From Clostridia bacterium (GTDB lineage Bacteria > Bacillota > Clostridia > Lachnospirales > Lachnospiraceae), in assembly GCA_910574835.1 (NCBI GenBank), contig CAJTDE010000019.1, positions 1-64,000 on the forward strand: a DNA stretch of 64,000 nucleotides. The letters are read 5' to 3'. Of the stretch, positions 12,804 to 61,848 are shown piece after piece (within the stretch, counting starts at the first letter, position 1; each line of letters begins with the position of its first letter). The position numbers were made by a program, and so were the translations under genes. Under the pieces are notes generated by a model that was given only the letters and a program-made list of their open reading frames with translations, did not search any database and had not been told where the DNA came from.

Positions 12804-15800
12804 TTGAAAAGAAAATGGAAAGATCTGCTGAAAAAAGCAGGTTTGATGCTGCTTTTGACGGCGATGCTTGCACAGACAGCAGGCGTATATGCTTATGCAG
12901 GAGCAGAGATTTATGAGACTGAATACCAAGGAGAAGAATATCAAAAACAGGAAAAGCAAACAAAAGATGCTCAGAGCTTACGGAATATAAAGAATATTAA
13001 GAATATTGAAAGTACTAAAAATACAAATAATACTAAGAGTATTAAAAATATTAAGAATACGCAGGATACGGAGAACACCGAAAACATAGAAAACACTGAA
13101 AACACAGAGGACACAGGGACTGCCGAGAATACGGAGAATACAAACAATACAAACAATACAGATAATACAGATAATACAGACAACGATTCTCCGGCAGAGG
13201 ATAAAGAGGTTGCAAACACAGAGAAAAAAGAATCGGAAAAATCTGAGGATGAAAATAACAAGACAGCCCCTGACGAGAAAACAGAAGAAAAGTCATCGGA
13301 TACAGAAAATACGGAAACACCGGAAAATGCGGAAACACCGGAACAAAGAGAACAATTTCACTTCCGGGACGGAGATGTGGAAAGTGTGCAGGAGTGGATG
13401 AGGCTCTACCTGCCAGGCGGATATGAGGATATTCTTTTGTTGGATCAGGACTGGTGGGATGCGCTTTATGATTATGAGAAGGATCTGGCAGACTTTATTC
13501 GAAGTTCGCTTGTAGAGTTGGATCCCCAAATATATAGCGGGCAGGACTTGGATGAGATTATATCGATTCTGGAGCAGGGAGCTTCGCCGGCTGCATTTTT
13601 TGAGGGAACCGTATTTCAATCACTGGAGCTTTCCGATCTCTATGCACTTCGAGACAATGGCCGGACTTTGGATCAGGTATATGAATTTCTGGCGGCTTAT
13701 CCGGAAGAGGCTACAGCACATGAATTAGATAACGAATGGATGGCGGAATACCAAAGCCTTTATAGTGCGGCCGAAAAGATTATGACAGACATGGGTATGA
13801 TGCAGACCTACTCTGCCGCTGCCGGAACCCTGGAAGCCGGAGATAGAGTAGCCAATCTGTCAGTATCAGCCAGCGGATATTCCGGCACAGGCCACGGCAC
13901 CATCTATAAGCTGACCTTGGGCGGCGAGCCGGCGCTGTGTTTGAATATGGGGAGGAGCGCCCGGAATGGGTATAAATATTTTGCAGGAGAAGGTGAAAAT
14001 GAAAGGCGGCAAAATGGGATCGGCTACCTTCTAAACTATGCCTCCTTGTCAGGAAAATATTACGCAACGGTTCAAATAGCAGCATGGCTGTATCTGGAGT
14101 CCGGTTCACTTTCCCAATCACAGGTTATGAGCAGGGCGGCATCTATGCTCAATACCTCCACAGAGGAGGCGGAGGATATGGCGAAGCTGGTCTGGGGTTA
14201 CTATCAGGGAGCTTGCAGCCATTCCATTCCCTACTATGTTTATCGCTCTGCCAACGGCAATGCACAGACCTTGGGAGTAAGGAACCAGCCTTCCACATCG
14301 ATCTATCAGCCGGGAACCGGCGGAGGCGGTGAGGAACCGGAACTTCCGGTGGTGGAGCCGGAATTTTCTTCCATAGAGGATTCGATTGCGGTATCCTATG
14401 AGGTCCGGGTACGAAAAACCGATTGGCAGACAGGTGTGGGCTTGAAAGGCTGTGTGGTAGATATCTTTGAAAATGGAAAAAAGATAGCCTCTGTTACCAC
14501 AGACGCCAATGGGGAAGCCTCCTACAGCACAAGCAAATCCGCTTCCTTCCAGGCAGATTACTGCAGCAACTATGGAGATTTGACGCCGGAGCAGCAGGCA
14601 GCAGTAGGCGGATATACCTCTCGGGAAGAAGCCCAGGCAAATATCGAGTCCCAGAAGCAGGATTTTGCCTCCGTAAGTTATACCTACGGCACGCGGGAGG
14701 TGACGGCCCCTACCGGCTATGTGTGGCAGGCAAATGAAAAATCGGGTTCCGTATCCGGAAATGGTTCCGTGACACTCGATCTAACCAATGAGAGGACCTT
14801 AGGCAGTGTGGAGCTTATAAAATATGATACGGAGAGCGAGAGCGGAACGGCTCAGGGCGAGGCAGAGCTGGACGGCGCCGTCTACGGCATCTATGCGGCG
14901 GAAAATATCAGCCACAGAGACGGAAAAACGGGCCGGCTGCTTCGAAAGGATGAATTGGCCGCCACAGCCACGGTGGGAAGAACGCCAAGACGAAATGCTG
15001 ACGGTTACATTCTGAATACGGACGGCAGCCGCCATATAGAAAATCCCAGAGGCGCTATTGCCTATGAGAATACACCCGGAAGGACCGCCTTTGGAGATCT
15101 GGAGCTGGGCAGTTACTATATAAAAGAGATTACGCCGGCGCCCGGATATATGCTGGACGAAGCCATTTACTCCGTAACCTTTACTTATAAGAATCAGATG
15201 ACAAAGGTAGAGGTTCGTAATGAGAGAGCCAGCGATGCAAATAATGAACTGACCGTAGACGACAGAGATACGTCTCATACCGTATATTCCGGAGATTATG
15301 TGATAAAGCAGGGAATCAAGCTTGTAAAAACCTCCGACAATGGCCACGACACAGAGCTGTCCGCCCTGGAAGGAGCCGGATTCTCCATCTATCTTATTCA
15401 AGATCTTTTGGGAGTAAAAAACGGAACCCTTACGCCCTTGAACGGCGTCTGGGGCAGCGATGATATCAAAGCCTTCTACGATTATGATTTCACAAAAGAA
15501 TCCAAAGCAATTGTATATAAGCGCACCAACCATGAACAATGGACCGCAGGCGATGAAAAATGGCTGACAGGGACAGGTATAGCCAATCAATATCAGGTGG
15601 CGGAAATGTTTACGGATAAAGATGGATGCATTGAGACGCCGGAGCTTCCATTTGGAACTTATGTGGTTGTGGAAACCACAACGCCGGAGAATCATGTGAT
15701 GGCCAGGCCCTTTATCGTTCATATCACGCAGGATGGAGGTGTGCTTTACACAGATGCAGGCAGGCGAACGATAGAAAAAACTTATACGTCAAAGGAAGGA

Positions 15801-18248
15801 ATCCGCTATGGCGATCACAAAGCCGCAAAGGAGCGGGAGGGCCGCTTACCTCAGAAGCAGAGAATTATCAACAATACTGTTACCAAAGCTTATCTTCGTA
15901 TTATAAAAGCGGACGAGGAATTTTTGGTGCCGCCCGGAACCTATGTGAAGGCGGAGGAATTAGTGCGCGGAACGGTTCTCAAGGAGGGAGCGCAATACCG
16001 CCTGCGCTGCCTGTCGCCGGAGGAAGAAAGTCTGAAGGCTTTGAACTGGATGGTAGATGCTCAAGGGTATCTCAGCTACTATTATCCGGGAGGAAAGCTG
16101 TTGACCGGAACGAAGGAGCATCCCTATGAAACCTCATTTTTGAAAAAGGATGGGAAAATTGCAGACTGTTATATCACCCTGCCCCAGAAGCTTCCGGTTG
16201 GGACCTATGAGCTGACAGAGCTGACCGCCCCGGAAGGGTATGTGATAAATGGGGCCGAACAGGCAGTAAATGACACAAGCACAGAAAACAGGAACAGCTA
16301 TGAACTTGTGGAAACTCCCAAGGGGAAAACCGTATTTACCATTGAAAACGGTTCCGTATATCCGAATGGGCAAATGGGAATCAGCAAATACGCCTTGTGC
16401 GACGCCTATGGAAATCTCACGGTAACCGTACTGCAAAAGAATCAGGAGCAGAAGGGGATTCTTGAGATCTATAAGCATGGAGAACAGGTATCCGGTGCAA
16501 ATGCCAGTGAGGAAACGCTTCTTGATAAGCTGGCAGACGAGCCGTTCCGTTATCTCAAGCTTCAGGAGGTGGCGAGGCACCAGGATGCCGTGTTTACTTA
16601 CGAGGATGCGCCTGTAGAGGGAGCAAGCTTTCAAATCGTGGCTGCGGAGGATATCTACAGTCAGGAACTGGACATAAAGCTGCTGGAGGAATATGGAATT
16701 GATACGGCGCCTTACCGCATTTGGAGGCAAGGCGATGTGGTGGCGGAGATTACGACGGATCGAAGCGGCTTTGCCTATGCGGCAGGACTTTATATCGGAA
16801 AATATAAGATTCGGGAAACGGTCGCGGGCAGCGGCTTTGTGCTGAATACTGAGGAGAAAGAATTTGCCATTTCCCCGCAGAAGCAGACAGTCAGCTTTGA
16901 TATCCGGAACGCGGATTATAAAAATGAGCGCCAGCGCTTGAACCTGAACGTGGTAAAGAAGGATAAGGAATCGGGAGAAAACCTTGCAGGAGCCGTTTAT
17001 GGTCTGTATGCGGGAGAGGATATTTGTACCGGAATCCTGTATGATGAGGAAAAGAAGGCTTGGATCATTCGTGAAAAGCCGGAAGTTCTGTTTGCAGAGG
17101 GAACCTTGATTGCCACTTGCATTACGGATTCGGAAGGAAAGGCTGTCTTTGATGAGGACTTGCCGTTGGGGCAGTATGAGATAAGGGAGTTAGAGGCGCC
17201 TCTTGGCTATCTTTTGTCCGAGGAAGTATTCGAAGTAGACGGAAGCTATGAGGGAGAAAAAGGAGGACAGGATGTAAAAAATCAGGAACATGTTATTGTT
17301 TTGGAAAATCAGATTACCAGGGTTCGTTTTCAAAAGCTGGATATGACCAACGGCCGGGAGCTTGCCGGAGCTTTGCTTGAGGTATGGGAGCTGCCGTTTG
17401 CAAAAGAGCCTGGCTCCAGGAGCAGCTCGGACAGCGCAGAGGTGAAGAAGGATTCCTGGATCTCCACAGGGCCGAGCCGAATGGTACATATGACGGAAGG
17501 ACTGCAGTTAGGCCGGACCTATGCGTTCCGGGAGGCCAGGCCGGCGCCGGGGTACGTGACGGCCGAGGATATTTATTTTCGGTTGGAGCAGCTTGCGGAC
17601 GAGGAGGGGAGATTGACAGATGAGATAGGCGTCTATGTGGTAGAACAGCCGGGAGAAGAACCGAAGGGGAAGAAAGCCTTGGCGGAGGAAGAGGAATCCG
17701 ATGAAGAACCTGTGAACCAGGAGGTATTGATTATGGAGGATGATATAACCAAGGTACAGATCAGCAAAAAGGATATAGCCACCAATGAGGAGCTTCCGGG
17801 TGCGCTCTTGGAGCTGTATGATGAAAAGGGTGCGCTTTTGGAAACCTGGGTGAGTACGGATACTCCGCATTATATAGAAAGACTTCCGATTGGAACTTAT
17901 CGGTTGGTAGAGAAGCAGGCGCCGGAGGGCTTTGGCTATGCGGAAGATGTGATTTTCCGGGTTTTGGATACGGATGAGATCCAGACTGTGGAAATGAAGG
18001 ATGGCGTGGATACGGAACCGGACAAGCCGGACACACCGGAAGAGACGCCGAAGGAGACGCCAAAGCCAAAAGGAGATAAGCCGGAGTCCCATTTTGAAGG
18101 TCCCGCACCGGAGGCCAGCCCTCAGGAAGTAAATGCACCGGAACTTGGCGACAGAAATGCAGTAAAAGGTTATGTTTTCATTCTTGTTTTATTCCTGGCA
18201 GCGATCGCAGCCGTTATTTTCCAGTATAAAAGAGATGTGGAAGAATAA
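12804..18248 (+). CDS. Giant surface adhesin: thioester domain plus SpaA/Cna-B repeats
   Basis: This is a secreted, membrane-tethered protein of 1814 residues. A signal peptide ends near residue 30. Residues about 55-125 are a low-complexity Asn/Thr/Glu/Lys tract made of short repeats. At about 347-475 lies a thioester domain: the Cys is in ALCLNMG (about 379) and the Gln in TVQIAAW (about 424), which in this family form a bond that can react with host surfaces. About eight SpaA/Cna-B-like beta domains follow, near 533, 668, 838, 1030, 1218, 1381, 1506 and 1650, many with the E-x-x-A-P-x-G-Y ending that goes with isopeptide bonds. A Pro-rich tract, a helix and a short basic/acidic tail close the protein. 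No LPXTG is present; PELGD may replace it. The start is TTG, with GGAGG 9 nt upstream. Confidence 0.85.
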   Translation: MKRKWKDLLKKAGLMLLLTAMLAQTAGVYAYAGAEIYETEYQGEEYQKQEKQTKDAQSLRNIKNIKNIESTKNTNNTKSIKNIKNTQDTENTENIENTENTEDTGTAENTENTNNTNNTDNTDNTDNDSPAEDKEVANTEKKESEKSEDENNKTAPDEKTEEKSSDTENTETPENAETPEQREQFHFRDGDVESVQEWMRLYLPGGYEDILLLDQDWWDALYDYEKDLADFIRSSLVELDPQIYSGQDLDEIISILEQGASPAAFFEGTVFQSLELSDLYALRDNGRTLDQVYEFLAAYPEEATAHELDNEWMAEYQSLYSAAEKIMTDMGMMQTYSAAAGTLEAGDRVANLSVSASGYSGTGHGTIYKLTLGGEPALCLNMGRSARNGYKYFAGEGENERRQNGIGYLLNYASLSGKYYATVQIAAWLYLESGSLSQSQVMSRAASMLNTSTEEAEDMAKLVWGYYQGACSHSIPYYVYRSANGNAQTLGVRNQPSTSIYQPGTGGGGEEPELPVVEPEFSSIEDSIAVSYEVRVRKTDWQTGVGLKGCVVDIFENGKKIASVTTDANGEASYSTSKSASFQADYCSNYGDLTPEQQAAVGGYTSREEAQANIESQKQDFASVSYTYGTREVTAPTGYVWQANEKSGSVSGNGSVTLDLTNERTLGSVELIKYDTESESGTAQGEAELDGAVYGIYAAENISHRDGKTGRLLRKDELAATATVGRTPRRNADGYILNTDGSRHIENPRGAIAYENTPGRTAFGDLELGSYYIKEITPAPGYMLDEAIYSVTFTYKNQMTKVEVRNERASDANNELTVDDRDTSHTVYSGDYVIKQGIKLVKTSDNGHDTELSALEGAGFSIYLIQDLLGVKNGTLTPLNGVWGSDDIKAFYDYDFTKESKAIVYKRTNHEQWTAGDEKWLTGTGIANQYQVAEMFTDKDGCIETPELPFGTYVVVETTTPENHVMARPFIVHITQDGGVLYTDAGRRTIEKTYTSKEGIRYGDHKAAKEREGRLPQKQRIINNTVTKAYLRIIKADEEFLVPPGTYVKAEELVRGTVLKEGAQYRLRCLSPEEESLKALNWMVDAQGYLSYYYPGGKLLTGTKEHPYETSFLKKDGKIADCYITLPQKLPVGTYELTELTAPEGYVINGAEQAVNDTSTENRNSYELVETPKGKTVFTIENGSVYPNGQMGISKYALCDAYGNLTVTVLQKNQEQKGILEIYKHGEQVSGANASEETLLDKLADEPFRYLKLQEVARHQDAVFTYEDAPVEGASFQIVAAEDIYSQELDIKLLEEYGIDTAPYRIWRQGDVVAEITTDRSGFAYAAGLYIGKYKIRETVAGSGFVLNTEEKEFAISPQKQTVSFDIRNADYKNERQRLNLNVVKKDKESGENLAGAVYGLYAGEDICTGILYDEEKKAWIIREKPEVLFAEGTLIATCITDSEGKAVFDEDLPLGQYEIRELEAPLGYLLSEEVFEVDGSYEGEKGGQDVKNQEHVIVLENQITRVRFQKLDMTNGRELAGALLEVWELPFAKEPGSRSSSDSAEVKKDSWISTGPSRMVHMTEGLQLGRTYAFREARPAPGYVTAEDIYFRLEQLADEEGRLTDEIGVYVVEQPGEEPKGKKALAEEEESDEEPVNQEVLIMEDDITKVQISKKDIATNEELPGALLELYDEKGALLETWVSTDTPHYIERLPIGTYRLVEKQAPEGFGYAEDVIFRVLDTDEIQTVEMKDGVDTEPDKPDTPEETPKETPKPKGDKPESHFEGPAPEASPQEVNAPELGDRNAVKGYVFILVLFLAAIAAVIFQYKRDVEE

Positions 18249-18766: not shown

Positions 18767-19147
18767 AATAGTTTACATAAGCATACCGCCCCATTGTAAG
18801 GAGTTGACTATATGGCTTGAAAATGTGGCATATTTTTTATCAGTAAGTATAATGATTGTAAGGGTATCTGCCGATATACATAGTAGATACGGAATACTGT
18901 CTGTGTAATGAGTATTGAAACAGGTTCCAGTCATTCATTTTTGATGCATATATTCCTCAAAATGACAAAAAAGTTGTTCAATTCAATACTTTTCATTTGT
19001 CAAAATTTTTGGTAAAATGAGAGTAATGGCAATTAAATTGTAGACAGCTTTCAAAAAAAGAAGAAAATTGTCGATTAGGAATATAGCAGTACATGCCTGG
19101 AATAGTTTAAAACAAGTGTCAGATACATAAAAGGAGTGAATGGATTC
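18767..19147. other. AT-rich gap before the second surface protein
   Basis: These 381 bases are AT-rich. TTGACT near 18803 and TATAAT near 18848 are too far apart to form one promoter. TTGTCA and TAAAAT near 19000-19020 are too close together. A promoter is likely here but I cannot fix it. No gene or strong repeat is seen. Confidence 0.35.
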
Positions 19148-22100
19148 ATGAAAGAATGGGGAACATGGTTAAAAAGATCCACATTGGTAGTACTGGGGGC
19201 TGTTCTGATTGGAAGTTCGGCAGGGATTTCTGCGCTGGCAGCGAATACGCCTGAGCCGGAAAAACCCACAGAAAGCACGGAACCAGTAGATAACGGTACA
19301 GGAAATGAGGAGAGCAGTGCGTCTAAGACAGACACGACACTCATTATTACAGATTTTGCCACATTAGATCAAGATGTAAGGCTTCAGGAATTGGAAGAGG
19401 GAGAAGAGCCAAACCTTCCGGATAAGCTGGATGTGACAGTTGCTATCAAAGAGAATAAGGAAGGGGAAGAATCAACTACAACCGGAGCAGGTATATCAAA
19501 TGTAGTCCAGGCTGTGGGTGAAATAGTTCAGCTTCCTAAAGGCAATACCACGATTAGCGGCTTGACTTGGGATACCGCATCTTCTTCTCAATCAAATAAC
19601 CGCATTACCGATACTTATGTGCCCGTGCTGCCGGAGACAGACGAGTATGGAAATACTCTGGTGCTTATGAATGCTATGACACAGGTGCCGGTGATTCAGA
19701 CTACAAGAAGTGTTGTACAAAATGACCAAGATAATACCACGGATGATACTGGTAGTGCTGGAAGTGAAAATGATATTGTGACTTATGCAGATCCGCCTGA
19801 TGGAAATCCAGTGCTTGTTAACTACGGGATATATGCGATTGGACCGGAAGATGGTATAATATGGTCTTCAATTAGTAAGCGTATTCAAATTACAAAACCA
19901 GGAAAGTATCGCATTACAGGTACTTTGACAGACATACCTAAGGAACTCCAATCAACCAATGAACTTATTGAATTAATGGAGCCAGGTACCTATGAAATTA
20001 TTTTAACAGATTTAAATATTGATATTAGTGATAAAGGATATAGTGCGATTTTTTCTATCCCATCAGAAGCAACTGTGAATTTGTCAACGGTGGCTACTAC
20101 GATAGATGAAATAAATCTAACGAACTCTGTTGGAGGGTTTGACAGGGTTATTGAGAATAAGGGAACATTAAACATTAATAAAGATGTTAAAATGACCTGT
20201 ACAGGTGAATTTGAAAATTCAGGAACTATGACAATGAAGGGGGCTAGTGAAATTATCAATAATGGCCCGTTTACGAATACTGGAGCAATGACGATATCAG
20301 AATCCAGCAAATTAGGAACCTTTGATTTTGCTAATGACGGAAAAGTGGAAATTGGAGGAAAATGGGAAGGTCATAATTCAAATGTATGTACTTTGACTGC
20401 TCAGGGACGGTTTAAAAATGGTAGTGGTAAGACTGTTATTATTAACGAAGGTGGATTGTATGTCAATGAAGGGACTGTTATAAAAGACGATAATACAAAA
20501 GACTGGTTGATAGATAATAGTGGAAAAATAGAGTTGATTAATGGAGGTAGTGCGGAAGCAAAGGATATTAAAAATAAGAATGGTGGAATAATATCTGTTA
20601 CAGGACAAAATAGTCTCCTGAAGGCTGATAAAGATGGCCAAGTGGGAATTTTAACAAATGAAGGAGACGTGTCAATTGATGATGGGGCAAAAGCGCAGGT
20701 AGGGATGCTTCAGAATAAAAATAAGTTAATTATAGGAAGCAGCTCAGAGAGTTCTGGTGCAGTAACAATTAAGCGTTCTCCAAAACCGGACGATCCGGAT
20801 AATTACAATTTAAATACAGGAACAATTGTAATTGAATCTGGAAGTGTTCTGGAAAAAGAAGAGACAGCTTCTGTAACACTTACAAATGATGGCTCCTTGA
20901 CTATAAAAAACAAAAATTGTTTAGGAACAGGCAATAGACAGATCAATTTAGCAGGAGAAGGTGAGTTTATTCTTGCTGGCCTTAGTGATAATATGTTGCA
21001 TATTCCTACTGGATATGAGCTTGCATATAATGGTGATGTTCGTACACAAGATGTGGCTGGTAATACACGTACAGTTGATAGCACGGTAGAGGTTGACGAT
21101 ACGGAAGGGACAGACGATACGGATATTACGGACAATACAAAAGGAGTAGTTACTATTGACAAAGAATGGTCTTATGAACCACTAAACCCAGATATTAAAT
21201 TTGAAATTAAGGTTATTGCAAAACTTACAGAGATTAGTCTATTTAGAAAAGGAGAACCTGTAGAACAGACTGGAAGTAGCTGGAAACCAGGAATAGAGGA
21301 TGCAGACCCCATTCCAGGTAGTACTAGTCATACAGCTATTGTGACAGATATAGGAATCAGAGATCCAGGAGATTATACACTTGTTTATACAGATACAAAA
21401 ACCGGTGAGACGGCTTCTGTTGGATTTACAATGACTCCTTGGAGTATGACGATTAATACAGATAGAGGTGATGATGAAGCATCAAAAGAACTATATGGGC
21501 CGGATGCATCCGCAGTGTATGAAAATAAGGAGCGGATTACAGGTAAAGTTCAGGTTGCTATATTTAATGAGAAAGCTGCTACTGGCGGCAAAACAAATGG
21601 AACAGTAACATTGTATTGGAATGCTGTTGATGCAAAAAATCTTGATGATGACACTGTAAAGGTGACAAAACCTCTTGCAATAGAATTAGACGACAGAGGG
21701 GTAGGTACAGTACCTTTTACAATTGAGACAGCGGATCAGACTTATATTTTACCGCCGCAGCTCAATGAGAATGATAAAGATTCATGGGATAATGAGGACT
21801 GGGCTTATAATCATCCATATTGCTTAACTGGAGTATATGAGACAGCAGGAGGAAACGTATATTATTCTGGTAATGCAGCCACAGAAAATCATCATATTAC
21901 AGCCGGCGTTACTAAGAAACTGGATGGCTGGTATGCAGATAAAAAATTAATTATTATTAGGCGAATATCTACGATTAATTTTACAAGTGAATACTATAGT
22001 CTGCCCCATATTTATGACGGCGAACCCTTACAGATGCCAGTAAAGCTGAAAGACGTTATGATTGGGAATACCAATGAAGATGAGCCGGGATATTTATGGT

Positions 22101-23695
22101 ATAAAGGCACGGAAGCAGCGGTCAATGAGGCATATGATAAAAAGTCCGTTACAGGGGTTTCAGGCTTAGAGCCGATAGCAGATCAATTGCAGGCAGAAGG
22201 CTTAGAGGCTCCGATAGATGCAGGCTGGTATATTATTGAGGGTACATTGCCTTCAACGAAGGAATATATGGGTTCAAAGCAGCTTAAGATTATAAGAATT
22301 GAACCGAGAAATGTTACTGTGTCTGTAAAGGATCAGCATAAAGCTTATGGAGCGGATGATCCGGATTCTTGGCGGGCATTTGATTTGACCAGCGAAGCAA
22401 ATGAACTCTATGTTGTTGAGGGCGGTATTTTGCCCAGAGATGAGAATAAAATAAAAGGTGATATAGCAAGACAGGACGATAAAGGTGAAGCATGCGGCAG
22501 GTATGAGATTAAGATTGAAACATATGATGCTGACAGCACCAAGCCTGCAAGGGATAATTACAAATTTACACAGCGTTCAGGTTATTTGACCATTGACAAA
22601 CGAGAATTGGATTGGGATACTGACAAGATGTTCATGGTAATTACAGATGATAATACGGTTTCTGTAGTAGGCGGTTTGAAAACAGAATATCATCTGAATG
22701 AAGGCGAAGACTTGGCAGCAATTGAGAAAAACCTTGAAAATGATGATGTGCTTGTAGTTTATGATAAACTTGATTTAAGTGCAGATCAATCAAAGGTAAC
22801 CATTGATAAGCCGAGACTGAGCGGCAGCGCATGTGATAATTATGTGATCCAGAGTAAAGGAATACCAGTATCTGTCAGCAATCTATATAAGGTATCTGTG
22901 AAAGCAGGCGGTGTTGATTCTACTACATTAGAGAAGCTGAAAGATTCGGGATTTGATACGGAAAATCAGGTTATAAGCGAGATAGAATCAAAGCTTATAG
23001 GCCAGGGAGTTCCCAAAGGAAATGTTGCTGTATATGATATTCTGCTTACAAAAGCGGATGGAAGTCAGTTGAGTGATGAGGAGATAAGAGACTTCCCCTG
23101 GGGAGCTTTGACGGTTACGGTTCCTTATCCTGCCGGAACTTCAAGAAGAACCTCCTTTATGGCGGCTCATATGTTTACGGAGGACATTGCATTAGATGGT
23201 CCTGGCATGAAGCGAGGCAATGTTGAGACCCGAAATTGGAGTGAAGTAGCGGCGATGGAAGAAGGCGTCCGTTTCCAGGTAACCAGCTTATCGCCAATTG
23301 CCATTGGCTGGTCAGCAACAACTAATAATCCGAATAATCCGGATAACCCGAATAATCCAAATGACCCAAATAACCCTAGTAATGGGAACAATGGGAATAA
23401 CAACGGGACGAATAACGGCACAAATAATGGCACGAATAATTCCGGTGATGGAAATAACAACGGGACGAATAACGGTACAAATAACGGTACAAATAACGGG
23501 AACACTACTGATAAGAAAGATGATACGAATAAGGCAACCACTACAAATAAATCATCTACAACAACAAAGACAACAGGCGTAAAGACCGGCGACCAAGCAC
23601 AGATTGCATTCTATATGATAACAACTTTAATAGCATGTCTTTTGTTGATTCTTATCATTTTCCTGATAAGAGCGCAGTTTCGTAAAAAAGATTAG
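19148..23695 (+). CDS. Large secreted surface protein with MBG-like domain and variant cell-wall anchor
   Basis: This protein of 1515 residues has a signal peptide ending near residue 32 (ISALAAN). Residues about 300-560 are rich in short beta motifs such as NKGTLNINKDV and NSGTMTMKGAS, which resemble a solenoid adhesin. An Ig-like stretch lies near 665-760. An MBG-like block at about 1050-1145 holds the typical AYGADDPD motif. Residues about 1390-1475 are Asn/Gly/Pro/Thr tandem repeats, probably a wall-spanning stalk. The end is GVKTGD, a hydrophobic helix and RAQFRKKD, which fits a sorting signal with KTGD in place of LPXTG. No sortase is in the window. The ATG at 19148 is preceded by AAGGAG, at the long spacing of 11 nt. 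Confidence 0.8.
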   Translation: MKEWGTWLKRSTLVVLGAVLIGSSAGISALAANTPEPEKPTESTEPVDNGTGNEESSASKTDTTLIITDFATLDQDVRLQELEEGEEPNLPDKLDVTVAIKENKEGEESTTTGAGISNVVQAVGEIVQLPKGNTTISGLTWDTASSSQSNNRITDTYVPVLPETDEYGNTLVLMNAMTQVPVIQTTRSVVQNDQDNTTDDTGSAGSENDIVTYADPPDGNPVLVNYGIYAIGPEDGIIWSSISKRIQITKPGKYRITGTLTDIPKELQSTNELIELMEPGTYEIILTDLNIDISDKGYSAIFSIPSEATVNLSTVATTIDEINLTNSVGGFDRVIENKGTLNINKDVKMTCTGEFENSGTMTMKGASEIINNGPFTNTGAMTISESSKLGTFDFANDGKVEIGGKWEGHNSNVCTLTAQGRFKNGSGKTVIINEGGLYVNEGTVIKDDNTKDWLIDNSGKIELINGGSAEAKDIKNKNGGIISVTGQNSLLKADKDGQVGILTNEGDVSIDDGAKAQVGMLQNKNKLIIGSSSESSGAVTIKRSPKPDDPDNYNLNTGTIVIESGSVLEKEETASVTLTNDGSLTIKNKNCLGTGNRQINLAGEGEFILAGLSDNMLHIPTGYELAYNGDVRTQDVAGNTRTVDSTVEVDDTEGTDDTDITDNTKGVVTIDKEWSYEPLNPDIKFEIKVIAKLTEISLFRKGEPVEQTGSSWKPGIEDADPIPGSTSHTAIVTDIGIRDPGDYTLVYTDTKTGETASVGFTMTPWSMTINTDRGDDEASKELYGPDASAVYENKERITGKVQVAIFNEKAATGGKTNGTVTLYWNAVDAKNLDDDTVKVTKPLAIELDDRGVGTVPFTIETADQTYILPPQLNENDKDSWDNEDWAYNHPYCLTGVYETAGGNVYYSGNAATENHHITAGVTKKLDGWYADKKLIIIRRISTINFTSEYYSLPHIYDGEPLQMPVKLKDVMIGNTNEDEPGYLWYKGTEAAVNEAYDKKSVTGVSGLEPIADQLQAEGLEAPIDAGWYIIEGTLPSTKEYMGSKQLKIIRIEPRNVTVSVKDQHKAYGADDPDSWRAFDLTSEANELYVVEGGILPRDENKIKGDIARQDDKGEACGRYEIKIETYDADSTKPARDNYKFTQRSGYLTIDKRELDWDTDKMFMVITDDNTVSVVGGLKTEYHLNEGEDLAAIEKNLENDDVLVVYDKLDLSADQSKVTIDKPRLSGSACDNYVIQSKGIPVSVSNLYKVSVKAGGVDSTTLEKLKDSGFDTENQVISEIESKLIGQGVPKGNVAVYDILLTKADGSQLSDEEIRDFPWGALTVTVPYPAGTSRRTSFMAAHMFTEDIALDGPGMKRGNVETRNWSEVAAMEEGVRFQVTSLSPIAIGWSATTNNPNNPDNPNNPNDPNNPSNGNNGNNNGTNNGTNNGTNNSGDGNNNGTNNGTNNGTNNGNTTDKKDDTNKATTTNKSSTTTKTTGVKTGDQAQIAFYMITTLIACLLLILIIFLIRAQFRKKD

Positions 23696-29897: not shown

Positions 29898-31319
29898 ATG
29901 AAATTTTCCTGGAAAATATGCTTTTCAACCATTATGTTAAGTCTTTTGATTTTTACCATCGGCGGATATGTACTGATATCCGCCTTGTTTCAGTCCACCT
30001 ATGAGCGGGAGGCTGCCAATGCCGGGGAGGAGAACCGGATGCTTCAGTATTCCTTTGCGGCCTATTGGAGCGCCACCATACAGGATATGGAGCCGAGCCT
30101 GGAAAATGTGCGGCGCACGGCGGACGCTATGGTGGATGGAATGGCGGGAAGCGATCTGCGGATACGGATTTCCGACGGGGACGGCAATGTGCTTTATGAC
30201 AATGCAAAGACAGAACCGGACACGGGACTTCTGGAAGCCATTACAAGGACCAGCCGGGGACATATGCTGCGCAGGAACGACAGCGGCTATGAGCTTCAGA
30301 CGGCAAGCATGGTCTGTCTGGGGGAGGAAGCGTTTCTGTATCTGGAAAGTATCCGGGATGTGACGGAGCTGTTTGAGGAGCGGGAGTCCCAGTATCGGAT
30401 CTACGGTCAGTGGCTTGCGGGACTTCTGGCGGTTCAGAGTATACTCTGCTATGGAATGGCCTCCTGGCTTCTGCGTCCCCTCAGACGTCTTTCCAGAGCC
30501 ACCCGGCGGATTGCGGGAGGAAACCTGAGCGTCCGCGCCAGAATGGAAAGTAAGGATGAGATCGGAGATCTGGCGGCGGATTTTAACCATATGGCGGATA
30601 ACCTGGAACAGCAGTTTCAGGAGCTTGAGGATGCGGCCAGGCGTCAGGAGGATTTTATCGGAAGCTTTGCTCATGAGCTGAAAACGCCGCTGACCTCTAT
30701 GATAGGGTATGCGGACATGCTTCGCACTACGGAGGTGACGCAGGAAGAGCAGTTTCAGGCGGCAAACTATATTTTTAAGGAGGGGAAGCGCCTGGAATCT
30801 CTCTCCTTTAAGCTGCTGGATCTGATGGTGGTGAAGAATCAGGAACTGGAGCTTCGGCCGGTGAAAATCCGCTGGATGGCGGAGGACATCAAGGGGATGC
30901 TGCAGCCTTCGCTGAAAAAGCTGGGGATTGTGCTGAAGGTGATCGTGGAGGACGCAAGCTTGATGCTGGAGCCGGATTTGATGAAAACGGTGCTGTTAAA
31001 CCTTCTGGACAACGGGCGGAAGGCCATAGAGGGGGAGGGAACCCTCTATCTGCTCGGACGCAGGGAGGAGGACGGCTTTGCCCTCTATGTCAGAGATACG
31101 GGCAAGGGGATTCCTAAGGAGGAGCTTTCCCAGATCACGGAGGCATTTTATATGGTAGACAAGTCCCGGGCCAGGCAGCAGGGGGGAGCCGGACTTGGCT
31201 TATCCATCTGTCAGGAGATTGTGAAGCGGCACGGAGGGACCATGACCTTTAAGAGCATTCCGGGCAAGGGAACTATGGTGCGGATTTTCCTGGAGATGCC
31301 GGAAATTGATTTGGACTGA
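29898..31319 (+). CDS. Sensor histidine kinase with HAMP domain (VanS-like)
   Basis: This is the membrane sensor partner of the preceding regulator. The first helix is at about residues 10-30, the extracytoplasmic sensor at 31-160 and the second helix near 168-190. HAMP follows at 190-245 (LRPLRRLSRATRRIAGGNL). The phospho-acceptor block is FAHELKTPLTSMIGYADML, and the ATPase has NLLDNGRKA, DTGKGIP and GAGLGLSICQEI. The last codons (MPEIDLD and the TGA) are read from sequence that matches the 3' half of a family A palindrome, GGAAATTGATTT-GACTGA, so the element seems to have supplied the end of this gene. Confidence 0.92.
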   Translation: MKFSWKICFSTIMLSLLIFTIGGYVLISALFQSTYEREAANAGEENRMLQYSFAAYWSATIQDMEPSLENVRRTADAMVDGMAGSDLRIRISDGDGNVLYDNAKTEPDTGLLEAITRTSRGHMLRRNDSGYELQTASMVCLGEEAFLYLESIRDVTELFEERESQYRIYGQWLAGLLAVQSILCYGMASWLLRPLRRLSRATRRIAGGNLSVRARMESKDEIGDLAADFNHMADNLEQQFQELEDAARRQEDFIGSFAHELKTPLTSMIGYADMLRTTEVTQEEQFQAANYIFKEGKRLESLSFKLLDLMVVKNQELELRPVKIRWMAEDIKGMLQPSLKKLGIVLKVIVEDASLMLEPDLMKTVLLNLLDNGRKAIEGEGTLYLLGRREEDGFALYVRDTGKGIPKEELSQITEAFYMVDKSRARQQGGAGLGLSICQEIVKRHGGTMTFKSIPGKGTMVRIFLEMPEIDLD

Positions 31320-31469
31320 GGCTGAGGTGTACTGTGAGAGATATTACGGAACTGGAACCAGTAATATCTCTCGAAGTGCACAAATCGATTTGCGGACACA
31401 TGCATTTGTGGCCGGAAATTGATTTAGACTGAGTGTACTGCGAGAGATATTACGGAACTGGAATAGGAG
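31302..31469 (+). repeat. Family A palindromic repeat, one full unit plus partial units
   Basis: The full 93-nt unit is 31361-31453. Its outer arms are 31361-31381 and 31433-31453, with TCTCTCGAAG opposite the complementary CTGCGAGAGA. The inner hairpin at 31382-31425 runs from AAATCGATTT to AAATTGATTT. On each side lies the constant spacer GGAACTGGAA. Upstream, 31302-31347 is the 3' half of another unit and overlaps the end of the kinase gene. Downstream, the spacer continues as GGAACTGGAATAGGAG, whose AGGAG is the ribosome site of the next gene, 7 nt before its ATG. Confidence 0.8.
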
Positions 31470-39090: not shown

Positions 39091-40545
39091 ATGAAAATAT
39101 TAGAAGGCTCCTTTCAATGTGAAGCAAATACATTTTGCGGCCAGCGAGCCGGCATAGAGGACTTTGAAAGGTATGAAGGAGAAGAATTACTGAATAAGAT
39201 GGCCGCAACACCCATATTCCGTGAGGCAGGGGCGAAGGTAGTACCGCTGCTCTACGTCAGTGCCTTGCCCAGCGGAATGGTGACTTTAGAAGCATTTGAG
39301 TATTACAAAAATTTATTTGTAGATTTAATAAAACAAGAGAAGGATATGGATGGTATCTATCTGTATCTCCACGGGTCGATGTATGTAGAGGGCTTGGGAA
39401 GCGGAGAAGAGTGGCTTTTAAAAGCGATCCGTCAGGTAGTGGGAGAGCGGATACCAATCGCGGTGGCTTTGGATTATCATGCCAATCTGTCAGACGGTTT
39501 TCTGAAGCAGGTAAATGCAGTTCAGGGGTTCCGCACTGCGCCCCACATCGATCAGGATGATACGGAGCGCCGGGCGGCGAAATCCTTGCTTGCATGTATA
39601 CGTAGTCATGTTTGTCCAAAACCGGCAGTATTCCGCGTTCCGTTTTTAGGCGGCGATGCATCTACCACAGATAAAGAACCTTTTGTCAGCATTACAAAGC
39701 GTTTGGAGGAATTGGATGGAGAAGAAGGGGTGGTCTCCTGTGCATTTTTTAACGGACAGCCCTGGTATGATTCGCCCTATACGGGGAACTGTGCAGTAGT
39801 TTCCTGTACAGATGCAGTCCGAGGACGAAGAGAGGCCCTAGAGCTGGCAAAAATGTTTTGGGCTGCAAGGGACAATTTAACTCTTGAACATGCTATGCCG
39901 GTGGATGAGGCAGTGGCAGCTTCTCTGGAGCCAAGGGACGGAATTGTGTTTGTCACAGATTCTGGTGATAATACGACGGCAGGGGCAGACGGAGAAGGAA
40001 CATTGCTGCTTCGGGAATATTTAAAAAGAAATGTAAAGGGGGTGCTGGTCTGCGGTATTCTTGCCAAGGATATTGTAAATGAGCTGCTTAAGGAAGAGTT
40101 GGGAGTTCAGAAAGAGATTTGTCTAAGCAAAGGATATCAGGAGAAGCAGAGAATAGAAACTGTCTGCCGGGTAACGCTGAAAAAGAAAGGGACGGTCTAT
40201 GGATGGGCAGGGGATGAGGTAGGAGAAGGTGTTTTAGTTTCCTGCGGCAACACGGATATTGTTTTGACGAATGCCAGGGCAGCATTTACAACACCGGAGC
40301 ATTTTTCCAGGATGGGAGTCTGCCCAGAGGATTATCAGGTGATTGCCATCAAGATGGGCTATCTTTTCCCAAAACTGAAAACGATTACAGAAAATTTTAT
40401 TTTCGCATTGACTCCCGGGGTAAGCAGTAATGACTTTGGACAGTTGGGGTATCGGAACTTAAAGAAACAGATGTATCCCATTAATAAAAGCATTACCTGG
40501 GAGGATGTTATGACACAAATGGAACTGGAATCAGTATTTGCCTGA
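39091..40545 (+). CDS. M81-family (MlrC-type) metallopeptidase-like protein
   Basis: This protein of 484 residues belongs to the MlrC family, named for an enzyme that degrades linearised microcystin. The predicted zinc ligands are Asp and His in ALDYHANLS and His in RTAPHIDQDD. An N-terminal block FQCEANTF and a C-terminal MlrC domain with AFTTPEHFSRMGV are present. No signal peptide, so it acts inside the cell. It follows an RbsB-type importer, a setting in which M81 proteins probably act on small imported amide or amino-acid conjugates. The real substrate is unknown. Confidence 0.85.
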   Translation: MKILEGSFQCEANTFCGQRAGIEDFERYEGEELLNKMAATPIFREAGAKVVPLLYVSALPSGMVTLEAFEYYKNLFVDLIKQEKDMDGIYLYLHGSMYVEGLGSGEEWLLKAIRQVVGERIPIAVALDYHANLSDGFLKQVNAVQGFRTAPHIDQDDTERRAAKSLLACIRSHVCPKPAVFRVPFLGGDASTTDKEPFVSITKRLEELDGEEGVVSCAFFNGQPWYDSPYTGNCAVVSCTDAVRGRREALELAKMFWAARDNLTLEHAMPVDEAVAASLEPRDGIVFVTDSGDNTTAGADGEGTLLLREYLKRNVKGVLVCGILAKDIVNELLKEELGVQKEICLSKGYQEKQRIETVCRVTLKKKGTVYGWAGDEVGEGVLVSCGNTDIVLTNARAAFTTPEHFSRMGVCPEDYQVIAIKMGYLFPKLKTITENFIFALTPGVSSNDFGQLGYRNLKKQMYPINKSITWEDVMTQMELESVFA

Positions 40546-40645
40546 CAGTGCCCAGATGGATCTACAGGCACATGCTGTGACTGGAAATCCATCTCAATTA
40601 GTGGGTACTGGAAGGCAAATACAAAACTGGAATAGAGGTGAAGCT

Positions 40646-46727: not shown

Positions 46728-46966
46728 GACAGGGATATTACGGAACTGGAATCAGTAATGTGCTTTACGGTTCACAAATCGATTTACAGACACATGCACT
46801 TGTGGCTGGAAATTGATTTAGATAAGGTGAACAGTAAGGGATATTACGGAACTGGAATCAGTAATATTCTTAACCATGCACAAATCAATTTACAGTTACA
46901 TGACTTTGTGACTGGAAATTGATTTTAAACCGGTGTATGGTGAAGAATATTACGGAACTGGAATAG
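46728..46966 (+). repeat. Family A palindromic repeats before rnfC, two full units
   Basis: Unit 1 is 46755-46847 and unit 2 is 46861-46953, both exactly 93 nt, separated by the 13-nt spacer GGAACTGGAATCA. Outer arms differ between the units but stay complementary: CTTTACGGTTCAC with GTGAACAGTAAG in unit 1, and TTCTTAACCAT with ATGGTGAAGAA in unit 2. Inner hairpins run from AAATCRATTT to AAATTGATTT. A partial arm (46728-46741) precedes. The last spacer, GGAACTGGAATAGAAAGGG, runs into the rnfC ribosome site. Confidence 0.8.
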
Positions 46967-50564: not shown

Positions 50565-51136
50565 CTTCGCTGATTATGATTGTGATTTCTACGGCGCTGA
50601 TTAACAATGTGGTGCTGAACCAGTTTTTGGGCATCTGTTCCTTCCTGGGAGTATCCAGACAGATTAAGACCTCCGCAAGCCTGGGGGGAGCGGTTATTTT
50701 TGTCATTACGATTTCCTCTGCGGTGGCGAGCCTTTTGTATGACTTTGTTCTGGTTCCGCTGAACCTTACATATCTTAAGACTATTGTATTTATTCTGGTG
50801 ATTGCGGCGCTGGTGCAGCTGGTGGAGATGTTTTTGAAAAAGACTTCGCGGGCCGTTTACCAGGCTTTGGGTATTTATCTGCCTTTGATTACGACCAACT
50901 GTGCGGTCCTTGGCGTGGCTTTAACCAATGTGCAGAATGGATTTAATCTGTTGGAGAGTGTTTTGGCCGGCTTTGGAACGGCGGTTGGATATACGGTTGC
51001 CATTGTGCTTCTGGCCGGTATCCGGGAGCGGATTGACGAGGACGCGATTCCGGCGCCCTTGCGGGGAGCGCCCATAGTACTGCTGTGCGCTGTGCTGATG
51101 GCGATTGCGTTTATGGGATTCGGGGGATTGTCGTAG
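50561..51136 (+). CDS. rnfA: Rnf electron transport complex, subunit A
   Basis: This 191-residue membrane subunit has six helices and is the partner of RnfE. The family blocks are INNVVLNQFLGICSFLGVS and LGIYLPLITTNCAVLGVAL, in which Cys residues match those of RnfE. The first codon overlaps the rnfE stop. After it come two family B palindromes and then rnfB, so this is the only long gap inside the operon. Confidence 0.94.
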   Translation: MTSLIMIVISTALINNVVLNQFLGICSFLGVSRQIKTSASLGGAVIFVITISSAVASLLYDFVLVPLNLTYLKTIVFILVIAALVQLVEMFLKKTSRAVYQALGIYLPLITTNCAVLGVALTNVQNGFNLLESVLAGFGTAVGYTVAIVLLAGIRERIDEDAIPAPLRGAPIVLLCAVLMAIAFMGFGGLS

Positions 51137-51142
51137 CGGCTT

Positions 51143-51417
51143 TGCCCTTTCGTGCCGTCGCGCAGCGATAAGGCAAAGTCGCAAAGACGCACGAGAGGAA
51201 CTTTCATGAGGTCCTTTCGAATGAAAGTTTCTCTCAATACCAGTGCGTCGAAGCGACTTTGCCCTTTAGTGCCGTCGCGCAGCGACCAGGCAAAGTCGCA
51301 AAGACGCACGAGAGGAACTTTTATGAGTGCTTTTCGAATAAAAGTTTCTCTCAATACCAGTGTGTCGAAGCGACTTTGCCCTTTCGTGCCGTCGCGCAGC
51401 GACTTTAAATAGGAGGA
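51143..51417 (+). repeat. Family B palindromic repeats between rnfA and rnfB, two full units
   Basis: Unit 1 is 51172-51263 and unit 2 is 51289-51380, both 92 nt, with a 25-nt spacer that begins CTTTAGTGCCGTCGCGCAGC. The outer arms are GGCAAAGTCGC and GCGACTTTGCC. The middle arms are GACGCAC and GTGYGTC. The inner arms change together: CTTTCAT with ATGAAAG in unit 1, CTTTTAT with ATAAAAG in unit 2. A partial arm precedes at 51143-51150. The final spacer ends in TTTAAATAGGAGG, the rnfB ribosome site. Open frames in this stretch are read-through of the repeat. Confidence 0.82.
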
Positions 51418-51422
51418 TAAGG

Positions 51423-52211
51423 ATGCAGGGAATTGTAATAGCTACTCTCATTGTGGGAGTGATCGGGCTTTTGATAGGCGCCGCTTTAGTGGCCGCCGGG
51501 AAAAAGTTTTATGTGGAGGTTGACGAGAGAGAAGCGCTTGTACGGGAATGTCTGCCGGGGAACAACTGCGGCGGCTGCGGTCAGGCCGGTTGTGACGCGG
51601 CTGCGGCTGCTATTGTAAATGGAGAGGCGGAAGTAAATGTATGTCCCGTCTGCAATGAAAAGGCCATTCAGGAAATCAGTGCGATTATGGGAGTGGACGG
51701 CGTTCAGACCGTGAAGAAGAGAGCTTTTGTCCGCTGCGCCGGGACTTGTGAGAAGACTTCTGTGAAATGTAATTATGTGGGAATCCGCGACTGCCGGTCA
51801 GCAGTTATGTCCGGTTTGCCCGTCTGGGAATGTGATTATGGCTGTCTCGGCTTTGGTTCTTGTGTGGAAGCCTGTGCCTTTGACGCCATTCATGTAAGGG
51901 ACGGCGCTGCAGTTGTGGACCCGGATAAATGCACGGGCTGCGGTCGCTGTGCCTCCGTTTGCCCTAAAAATCTGATTGAGCTGCTCCCCGGCGATGCAAA
52001 AGCGGCCGTTGCCTGCTCCAGCAAGGCAAGAGGGCCGGAGGTTAAAAAGGCATGTTCTGCCGGCTGCATCGGCTGTAAGCTCTGTACAAAACAGTGTGAG
52101 GCGGAAGCGATTCAGGTGGAGAATAACCTGGCCGGCATTGATTATGATAAATGCGTGGGCTGTGAGAAATGTATGGAGAAGTGTCCGGCAAAGGCCATTG
52201 TGCGGCCGTAG
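51423..52211 (+). CDS. rnfB: Rnf electron transport complex, subunit B (ferredoxin-type)
   Basis: This subunit of 262 residues accepts electrons from reduced ferredoxin. One N-terminal helix (about residues 4-25) is followed by the NCGGCGQAGCDAAA motif for a 4Fe-4S cluster. Further Cys-rich ferredoxin modules include CTGCGRCASVCPK, CIGCKLCTKQC and CVGCEKCMEKCP, so five or six clusters are likely, as in clostridial RnfB. The ATG at 51423 lies 6-7 nt after AGGAGG, which comes from the tail of the family B repeat. It is the last gene of the operon. Confidence 0.94.
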   Translation: MQGIVIATLIVGVIGLLIGAALVAAGKKFYVEVDEREALVRECLPGNNCGGCGQAGCDAAAAAIVNGEAEVNVCPVCNEKAIQEISAIMGVDGVQTVKKRAFVRCAGTCEKTSVKCNYVGIRDCRSAVMSGLPVWECDYGCLGFGSCVEACAFDAIHVRDGAAVVDPDKCTGCGRCASVCPKNLIELLPGDAKAAVACSSKARGPEVKKACSAGCIGCKLCTKQCEAEAIQVENNLAGIDYDKCVGCEKCMEKCPAKAIVRP

Positions 52212-57930: not shown

Positions 57931-57944
57931 CGAACAAACATTCG
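57931..57944. promoter_or_regulatory. LexA-box-like site (SOS operator)
   Basis: CGAACAAACATTCG matches the Firmicute LexA consensus CGAAC-N4-GTTCG with one change. It lies just downstream of the putative recA promoter, where a bound repressor would block transcription. Confidence 0.55.
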
Positions 57945-57971: not shown

Positions 57972-58292
57972 ATAATATTCTTCACAATGCACAGATCGAT
58001 TTACAGGCATACGATTCTGCGACTGGAAATTGATTTAGTCAAAGTGCATTGGGAGGGATAATACGGAACTGGAAACAGTAATATCCCTCCCAATACACAA
58101 ATCGATTTACAGGCGCATGATCCTGCGACTGGAAATTGATTTAGTCAAAGTGCATTGGGAGGGGTAATACGGAACTGGAAACAGTAATATCCCTCCCAAT
58201 ACACAAATCGATTTACAGGCGCATGATCCTGCGACTGGAAATTGATTTAGTCAAAGTGCATTGGGAGGGATAATACGGAACTGGAATAGGAG
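57972..58292 (+). repeat. Family A palindromic repeats before recA, three full units
   Basis: Units are 57972-58064, 58078-58170 and 58184-58276, each 93 nt, separated by the 13-nt spacer GGAACTGGAAACA (period 106). Units 2 and 3 are nearly identical, with arms CCCTCCCAAT and ATTGGGAGGG; unit 1 has a diverged left arm. Inner hairpins contain CAGGCGCA with TGCGACTG. The last spacer reads GGAACTGGAATAGGAG, and its AGGAG is the recA ribosome site, 6 nt before the ATG. Confidence 0.88.
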
Positions 58293-58298
58293 ATTAAG

Positions 58299-59366
58299 AT
58301 GGTAAAAGAAGAAAAATTAAAAGCATTGGATGCAGCATTGGGACAGATTGAGAAGCAGTTTGGCAAAGGCTCCGTGATGAAGCTGGGAGACAAGGGAGCA
58401 CACATGCAGATAGAGACGACCCCCACCGGCTGCCTGAGCCTTGATATGGCACTGGGACTTGGCGGAGTTCCCAAAGGAAGAATTATCGAGGTCTACGGAC
58501 CGGAATCCAGCGGTAAGACCACAGTTGCCCTGCATATGGTAGCGGAGGTCCAGAAGCGTGGCGGAATCGCAGGCTTTATTGATGCGGAGCACGCTCTGGA
58601 CCCCGTCTACGCCAAGAATATCGGAGTGGACATAGACAATCTGTACATATCTCAGCCGGACAACGGAGAGCAGGCCCTTGAGATAACGGAGACTATGGTG
58701 CGTTCCGGGGCCGTAGATATCATCATTGTGGACTCCGTGGCGGCGCTGGTGCCAAAAGCGGAGATAGAGGGAGACATGGGAGATTCCCATGTGGGCCTGC
58801 AGGCGCGGCTGATGTCCCAGGCATTGAGAAAGCTGACGGCCGTAACCAGCAAGTCTAATTGTACCGTGATCTTTATCAACCAGCTTCGTGAGAAGATAGG
58901 CGTGATGTTCGGCAATCCGGAGACGACTACGGGAGGCCGGGCGCTGAAATTCTACTCCTCTATCCGTCTGGACGTGCGCCGCGTGGAAACCCTAAAGCAA
59001 GGCGGAGAGATGGTAGGCAACCGTACCAAGATCAAAGTGGTAAAGAATAAGATTGCGCCGCCGTTTAAGGAAGCGGAGTTTGATATTATGTTCGGCGAGG
59101 GTATTTCCCGGGAAGGTGATATTCTGGATTTGGCCGTGAATACGGGCGTGGTCAATAAGAGCGGCGCCTGGTACGCTTACAACGGCGACAAGATTGGCCA
59201 GGGGCGTGAGAATGCCAAGACCTATCTTCGGCAGAATGCGGCTGTTTGTCAGGAGATCGAAGAGCGGGTACGGGAAGGCTTTGGCCTGGAATCCGCAGTG
59301 ATTTCCGAGGAAAAGCCGACAGCGGAATCCAAAGAAAAGAAATCCAAGGCGGCTGCTGAAAAATAA
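58299..59366 (+). CDS. recA: Recombinase RecA
   Basis: This is the strand-exchange and SOS co-protease protein, 355 residues. Walker A is [27 protein letters not shown] and [21 protein letters not shown] (loop L2) are all present. The C-terminus is Lys/Glu-rich, as usual. AGGAG lies at the end of a family A palindrome array. The stop overlaps the recX start (TAATG). A LexA-like site lies about 360 bp upstream. Confidence 0.97.
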
Positions 59367-61715: not shown

Positions 61716-61744
61716 TGTGATTTTATATATAAAACTGTAAACAG

Positions 61745-61848
61745 TGAAATCGCTCACAGTGTATAAATTGATTTGCAGACACAGCATCTATGGCTGGAAA
61801 TAGTTTTTATAAAAATGTACGGTGAGAAATATTACAAAACTGGAATGG
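61745..61848 (+). repeat. Degenerate family A repeat before proC
   Basis: The inner hairpin (AAATTGATTT at about 61766, GCAGACACA with the near-complement TATGGCTG, then GGAAATAGTTTTT) and the right arm GGTGAGAAATATTAC match family A, but the outer left arm is decayed. The spacer is AAAACTGGAATGGAGG, in which GGAGG is the proC ribosome site, as in the intact copies. Confidence 0.65.

Follow-up and report, generated by a model that had tools for sequence, protein, structure and literature searches.

Tandem hairpin units with a covarying fold before Shine-Dalgarno sites in a Lachnospiraceae genome resemble a movable mRNA leader module

Three hairpin units stand directly before recA in the stretch of a Lachnospiraceae genome analyzed here (the window, i.e., the whole stretch of 64,000 nt). 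They belong to a repeat family, termed family A, whose copies share a covarying fold, lie in a single orientation directly before Shine-Dalgarno (SD) sites, change in copy number, and turn over between species. Family A looks like a movable mRNA leader module, not ordinary repeat DNA, and we assign a probability of about 0.5 to the reading that it is a mobile sense-strand RNA leader module which insulates, and perhaps protects, its own cistron. The recA array, first noticed in an initial annotation of the window, is confirmed; the analysis adds to it that the copies are mobile, that they turn over between species, and that their site is common to two other repeat families.

The recA array and other family A units in the window

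The array before recA consists of three units of exactly 93 nt and two 13-nt spacers with a period of 106 nt, as the initial annotation had described, and both the coordinates and TRF (score 560) confirm this. Unit 1 (57972..58064) scores 90.5 bits under covariance model R1, whose 34 training units include 29 taken from loci outside the window entries; unit 1 is the most diverged of the three and has another 5' arm, ATTCTTCACAAT. It is followed by the spacer GGAACTGGAAACA (58065..58077), unit 2 (58078..58170, 108.1 bits), a second GGAACTGGAAACA (58171..58183), and the SD-proximal unit 3 (58184..58276, 110.8 bits). A terminal spacer, GGAACTGGAAT (58277-58287), leads into the Shine-Dalgarno AGGAG (58288-58292), and recA (58299..59366; RecA PF00154, E 9e-144) starts 22 nt past unit 3. 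The spacer preceding unit 1 is degenerate (GGTGCAGGAATCA), and the arms quoted for this locus, CCCTCCCAAT/ATTGGGAGGG, are restricted to units 2 and 3. On the 5' side lies CGAACAAACATTCG (57931..57944), which we take to be a candidate LexA/SOS box given its resemblance to one, and the array sits between this box and the SD. The CGAACAAACATTCG stretch also precedes recA in relatives, whether the element is present or absent. All of these features are on the + strand.

A family A unit has outer arms of 21+21 nt with 51 nt between them, namely a 44-nt inner hairpin and a 7-nt one-sided 3' bulge. The arms that the initial annotation quoted for rnfC and the 31.5-kb gene do occur in the sequence, but most of its inner stems contain a purine-purine mismatch instead of pairing fully. 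Its estimate of about six units is too low, since the window holds eight full units in five arrays (at 31348, 40521, 46742, 57959, and 61731).

The remaining four arrays are also on the + strand. A two-unit array (46742..46953) precedes rnfC (RnfC PF13375, E 1e-33), and the 31.5-kb gene (at 31477), which has no Pfam match, is preceded by one unit (31348..31453) plus a partial one (31298-31347) that overlaps the upstream gene's end. A shorter unit (40521..40622) lies before the ATG at 40646, and a diverged unit (61731..61835) lies before proC (ATG 61857; ProC TIGR00112, E 1e-82). In the unit at 40521, ACGG has changed to ATGG, hence a chance nine-codon frame, ATGGAACTGGAATCAGTATTTGCCTGA, at the element's 5' end (40540-40566). 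Runs of 9-nt repeats are also present in the window, at 12983-13343 and 23324-23501, within the large ORFs 12804-18248 and 19136-23695; these are likely low-complexity protein segments.

The family had been reported as unrecognized, and in agreement with this, an Rfam search with cmscan at the gathering score yielded only a tRNA in the window and zero matches for seven loci of other genera. With relaxed thresholds, the recA array yielded microRNA and snoRNA models far below gathering, scattered on both strands, and these were rejected as chance hits. No published description of family A was found in open-licence papers, although a human-microbiome survey reportedly presents thousands of candidate RNAs, which could include this motif. 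The sole match to family A in a named record is the mouse-catalogue metagenome assembly CAJTFE010000001.

Fold, covariation, and strand

The folding energies of seven sense-strand window units are 6.5 to 9.9 sd below those of dinucleotide shuffles, and the stems hold about 35 pairs. For the covariation test, the best 150 units of the home clade (138 distinct rows) were aligned by fitting to the covariance model. In this alignment 96.7% of the 4,815 cells are paired, 29 of 35 pairs present two-sided change, and double-change cells number 506, compared with 112 in shuffles; none of 500 shuffles reaches any of the five measures. When the partners are slid by 1-3 columns, 25-51% of cells pair. When 20 units from six genera were aligned with MAFFT, blind to structure, 94.4% of cells were paired and double-change cells numbered 135, compared with 43. 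The initial annotation had set against its own reading the case of covariation no greater than that of a palindrome evolving by copying; in the home clade, the values obtained are beyond every one of the 500 shuffles and every slid control, and they likewise exceed their controls in other genera. A fold conserved while its sequence changes is what that annotation took as the mark of a functional structure, and these values are consistent with such a structure.

The departures from pairing point to the sense strand as the one that carries the fold. In the home clade, one-sided departures are G.U in 102 cases and A.C in 27 (p 2e-11, two G.U-consensus pairs dropped), and with one unit per array in genome G000 they are 53 and 18 (p 4e-5). 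Changes from consensus in unpaired columns are G>A in 100 cases and C>T in 14 (raw counts, composition uncorrected), so mutation bias does not explain the G.U excess. In other genera, the excess is gone once the G.U-consensus pairs are removed (16 vs 13, p 0.71), and two positions are mostly G.U, as in the home clade. By computed energy, unit 3 of the recA array folds slightly better in antisense (-44.8 vs -43 kcal/mol in sense), and two other units favor sense strongly. Between G000 and G007, 10 of 14 stem changes keep the pairing; change rates are similar in paired columns (15 letters in 70) and unpaired ones (13 in 53). Of 24 arrays, 13 have a higher-scoring SD-proximal than distal unit, 8 show the reverse, and 3 a tie (p 0.03).

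The units share a conserved core, ATTTAC(A/G)G...C(T/C)GGAAAT, with purine-purine mismatches. Column pair 53.70 is G.A in 60 units and A.G in 56, versus G.G in 11 and A.A in 6, and we infer that the purine mismatches form sheared G.A pairs. A bulge of 6-9 nt on the 3' side only is present in 17 of 17 units from other genera, in which the 5' side of the 3x3 loop always reads GNA (17 of 17) and the 3' side mostly does (14 of 17). Because the bulge, the purine mismatches, and the 3x3 loop are kept, the element is not a simple palindrome; template-switch repair would erase them.

Placement, neighboring families, and turnover

Applied to 61 stretches that together cover 1.16 Mb of the 5.0-Mb window genome, R1 found 110 sense units in 80 arrays, of which 56 are single, 18 double, and 6 triple, with one array, split at a tile border, counted twice. 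The stretches on contigs C1, C9, and C11 plus the window contain 43 arrays in 761 kb. Extrapolation yields from about 190 (C1 rate) to 280 arrays per genome, an estimate that leans upward given the contigs were picked for having matches. These array counts come from tiles; the genome-wide lists cover 150 scored candidates per genome, including antisense matches, which overlap sense units and are mirror matches.

Random placement relative to genes, the other outcome the initial annotation had set against itself, is not what was found. In six genomes, a start codon with an SD follows 106 of 116 arrays, at a median of 24 nt, and lies within 45 nt in 104 of the 116, compared with 9.4% of random positions and 9.0% of random intergenic positions. 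The ten arrays without a scored SD and start belong to G000 (6), G013 (2), G002 (1), and G012 (1). Inspected by eye, three of those in G000 run into a copy of family B, described below (L141, L164, and L153), one adjoins B-like sequence (L171), one is cut at a tile border (L139), and one has an SD-like AGGAG with a possible TTG start (L126). According to a crude ORF map, the next gene is on the same strand for 73 arrays and on the opposite strand for 4, and the previous gene is on the same strand for 68 and divergent for 10 of the 78 arrays mapped; 46 of the 68 begin no more than 60 nt past that gene's end, in line with intercistronic leaders. Empty orthologous leaders retain AAGGAG, which marks the SD as part of the host leader.

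De novo clustering of 573 sampled SD-upstream stretches produced groups of 32 (family A, i.e., about one gene in twenty), 28 (family B), 4 (family C), and 2. Family B is a tandem hairpin repeat, GTCGCAAAGRCGCACGAGAGGAACTTT..CTTTAGTGCCGTCGCGCAGCGACTT, with a period of 117-124 nt, ending in AATAGGAGG before start codons. One family B array (51130..51403, + strand, period 117) lies in the window before the gene at 51423, whose G013 ortholog has family A there; further loci are L113:18108, L125:12355, L136:2245-2611, and others. Ends of family B are followed by SD and start in fewer than 68 of 78 cases, as at least 9 of the 60 listed are the next tandem copy's own AGAGG..ATG. The internal AGAGGAAC..ATG frame of family B was rejected as a leader ORF, its 3' ends varying in frame and stop by eye. 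Family C, of UUCG type, consists of short tandem repeats with ACACCC-TTCG-GGGT-like hairpins ending in CAAGGAAAGGAG before start codons (L134:1496, L145:2664, and, on the minus strand, L145 at 8755 and L127 at 3063; L246 in G013). The same clustering recovered family A in G007, G005, and G013, family B in these three and G002, and family C in G013. None of the three turned up among the 46 G012 genes clustered; G015, a sister-clade genome represented by 274 genes, yielded one pair only, unlike A, B, or C. Family A precedes B at L141, L164, and L153, and B precedes A at L159 and L244, so that both orders occur before SDs.

Within the genus, family A is present in 8 of 16 genomes (150 candidates scored per genome). 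The carriers are the group whose RecA is at least 96% identical to the window RecA; the other eight are at 89%. Elsewhere in the bacterial family, own genus included, model R1 (298 genera searched) has matches in 6 and R2 (334 searched) in 8, and an order-wide sample of 392 genomes (those listed are all of the same family) yielded the own genome only. At 18 loci from five other genera, which are the best-scoring matches and a non-random sample, the stem sequences are nearly unrelated, while the core and the trailing GGAACT are mostly kept. An SD and start lie within 45 nt at 15 of the 18, the exceptions being L286 (+136, with a further diverged unit between, by eye), L295 (+55), and L303 (contig end). 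An exact-pattern search of viral contigs yielded zero matches for A or B, and blastn against plasmids also yielded zero. G013 has, in addition, a second RecA-like gene (G013:C5:359179-360117), 51% identical to the window RecA over residues 11-325.

G007 allows turnover to be followed, as its flanks at orthologous arrays are about 98-99% identical. The recA array is common to G007 and the window genome; in G007 a single unit precedes rnfC (two in the window genome) and the L147 array has three (two in the window genome), the L144:3970 palindrome is mostly lost, and L165:8508 is empty. Protein matches that still have a model match are 11 of 15 in G007, 1 of 6 in each of G002 and G005, and 1 of 5 in each of G012 and G013. 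Among those lacking a model match, two per genome are paralogs (73-76% identity), and several more correspond to remnants or diverged units, not clean empty sites. Clean empty recA leaders are present in G005, G004, G013, and four non-carriers examined. Since sites are not conserved between species, no single gene seems dependent on its own copy. Lone spacers (ATTACGGAACTGGAAT before an SD) make up about nine or ten of 29 motif matches by eye, and are what recombination between spacers would leave after loss. In the G005 ortholog of the proC leader (L244, about 2109) there is a spacer-centered mini-hairpin, TTCTGC-GGAACTGGAAACA-GCAGAA, without a full unit, which is apparently a remnant after the hairpins on both sides were lost.

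Proposed role and alternatives

In the leader-module reading, a unit would be transcribed in the same direction as the gene it precedes, within an mRNA leader or intercistronic stretch, as its position suggests. Its RNA would form one long hairpin made of outer stem, 6-9-nt one-sided bulge, inner stem, and conserved core. Given the footprint of a starting ribosome, the end of the hairpin, about 24 nt before the start codon, would fall just outside the ribosome's place. As the hairpin pairs with itself, the SD is computed to be more open than in the same leader without the element: over 70 arrays, the SD is unpaired at 0.582 with the element, 0.506 with it removed, and 0.507 with it shuffled (p 0.001 and 8e-5). 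Among leaders as such, the values are 0.66 for 31 with family A and 0.46 for 504 others (p 7e-6), although their upstream lengths differ. The opening is modest; it is absent from family B (p 0.48), and p is 0.07 for family C, with four genes. Also against the leader-module reading are the turnover of individual sites, the G.U excess that vanishes in other genera, the similar change rates of paired and unpaired columns, the antisense fold of unit 3, and an SD-proximal unit that scores higher in only 13 of 24 arrays. The most likely job of the module would be a translation start independent of upstream sequence, along with a protected downstream mRNA end, and a protein on the conserved core is likely. 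Copies would land beside an SD, multiply in tandem, and be lost via recombination between the repeated spacers.

Next in rank comes a selfish, non-autonomous hairpin element of MITE or REP kind, which we consider possible yet less probable than the leader module. A strand-specific enzyme acting on single-stranded DNA hairpins would insert it beside SD-like purine motifs, the fold would be selected for mobility, other insertions would be purged, and effects on host genes would be incidental. The changes between genomes about 98-99% alike (L165:8508, L144:3970, rnfC, and L147), the high turnover between species, and the two orders of A and B before SDs all fit this account, and the strand bias and single orientation also fit an enzyme acting on one DNA strand. 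Simple targeting of AGGAG is compatible with the counts as well: 24 of 604 AGGAG used as SD have the element, compared with 1 of 121 intergenic non-SD ones (p 0.10, counting elements outside coding sequence). However, the flanks of 27 arrays without an upstream spacer match at 2.96 of 6 positions, compared with 2.86 when permuted (p 0.29), so that these flanks show no significant target-site duplication signal; one empty site is compatible with a short A-rich duplication. The 90 arrays with upstream GGAAC do present an excess (4.12 vs 3.81 permuted, 0/2000), which the repeated spacer itself explains.

Two enzyme families were considered as mobilizers of a selfish element and rejected, in genomes that are partly incomplete. 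The Y1/HUH transposase (PF01797) is absent from G004, G006, and G007, where the element is present, and present in G001, G008, and G015, where the element is absent (the genomes of this check are 82-98% complete); reverse transcriptase (RVT_1) is absent from carriers G006 and G012. Hence, the presence of neither tracks the element. Moreover, a single shared mechanism would be needed to bring two or three unrelated families to exactly the same site.

A third account, which we regard as improbable, is that the units process or stabilize intercistronic RNA, with a cut by a double-strand RNase or a block to exonucleases letting the cistrons of one operon differ in half-life, a role proposed for REP and Correia elements. 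In its favor, 46 of 68 arrays start at most 60 nt past the end of a same-strand upstream gene (raw count), the stem length is suitable, and PMC3049150 mentions as background that RNase III cleaves Correia elements and that ERIC and BIME repeats affect transcripts. Yet 10 of 78 arrays follow a divergent gene and the recA array follows its own promoter region, which suggests cistron separation is not general, and a cut in mid-stem leaves the conserved internal loops unexplained.

Far less credible is a riboswitch or another ligand- or protein-sensing switch whose 5' arm would pair with the SD in one state. Such a switch would likewise be a structured 5' leader, placed before start codons, whose core is conserved and whose stems vary, but the genes that follow family A are functionally mixed (recA, rnfC, and proC in the window). 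The 20 downstream proteins scanned include fructose-6-phosphate aldolase, CobI, NagB, CutC-like, ScpA, ProC, CheR, transketolase, CobS, and RnfB; no pathway common to the 20 was seen, and three have no NCBIfam match. Furthermore, 5' arms pair with their own SD no better than with the SDs of other arrays (60 arrays, p 0.83), and tandem copies up to three with loss inside a species do not suit a switch. Finally, a neutral palindrome, its arms kept complementary by template switching during replication with the structure unselected, would fit the many near-perfect palindromic units and homogenized tandem copies, but is very unlikely given the one-sided bulge, G.A/A.G swaps, and 3x3 loop that survive across genera, the sense-strand G.U excess over A.C in the home clade, and the sense-only placement before SDs.

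Among known systems, REP/BIME elements with RAYT transposases form over 100 intergenic palindromes per genome, in tandem arrays of alternating orientation. Family A units are instead head to tail, although multi-unit arrays were defined as same-strand; and while REP/BIME pair with a Y1 enzyme (RAYT), Y1 does not track the element in family A carriers. As in Rfam-type cis-regulatory RNAs, family A is a covarying leader before start codons, but it is mobile, tandem, functionally unspecific, and below every gathering score. Among open-licence papers, the nearest placement precedent is the TAACTGA direct repeats of marine Beggiatoaceae (PMC4679880). These form about 169 dispersed tandem sets per genome, mostly forward and just 5' of start codons, with no functional theme, and a translational role was proposed. 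Most family A copies also point toward a start codon and are close to it; however, TAACTGA is a 7-nt unstructured repeat, mostly without an SD, whereas family A consists of covarying hairpins of about 106 nt directly before the SD. The nearest repeat precedent is BOX, RUP, and SPRITE of Streptococcus pneumoniae (PMC3049150), small dispersed elements with predicted RNA folds and nested insertions that are thought parasitic. Table 1 of that paper shows an excess of them between convergent genes (for BOX, 16 convergent and 70 upstream of a gene), in contrast with the sense-only position of family A before SDs.

With its fold covarying in several genera, family A is a candidate for a new RNA family. 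The usual view of dispersed bacterial repeats is that they are parasites surviving where they are least harmful. Family A, in one orientation, occupies the most sensitive spot of the leader, and three families converge there. A broader proposal, which we advance tentatively and with less confidence than the leader-module reading, is that one clade has mobile leader cassettes, belonging to three or more unrelated families, which are delivered in the sense direction right before SDs; if true, a genome could provide many of its genes anew with insulated translation-start leaders that are interchangeable. Either an insertion machinery recognizes translation-start regions or selection keeps RNA modules there, and both would be new. 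Studies of how translation and decay depend on structure 5' of the SD would also find a natural tool in the element.
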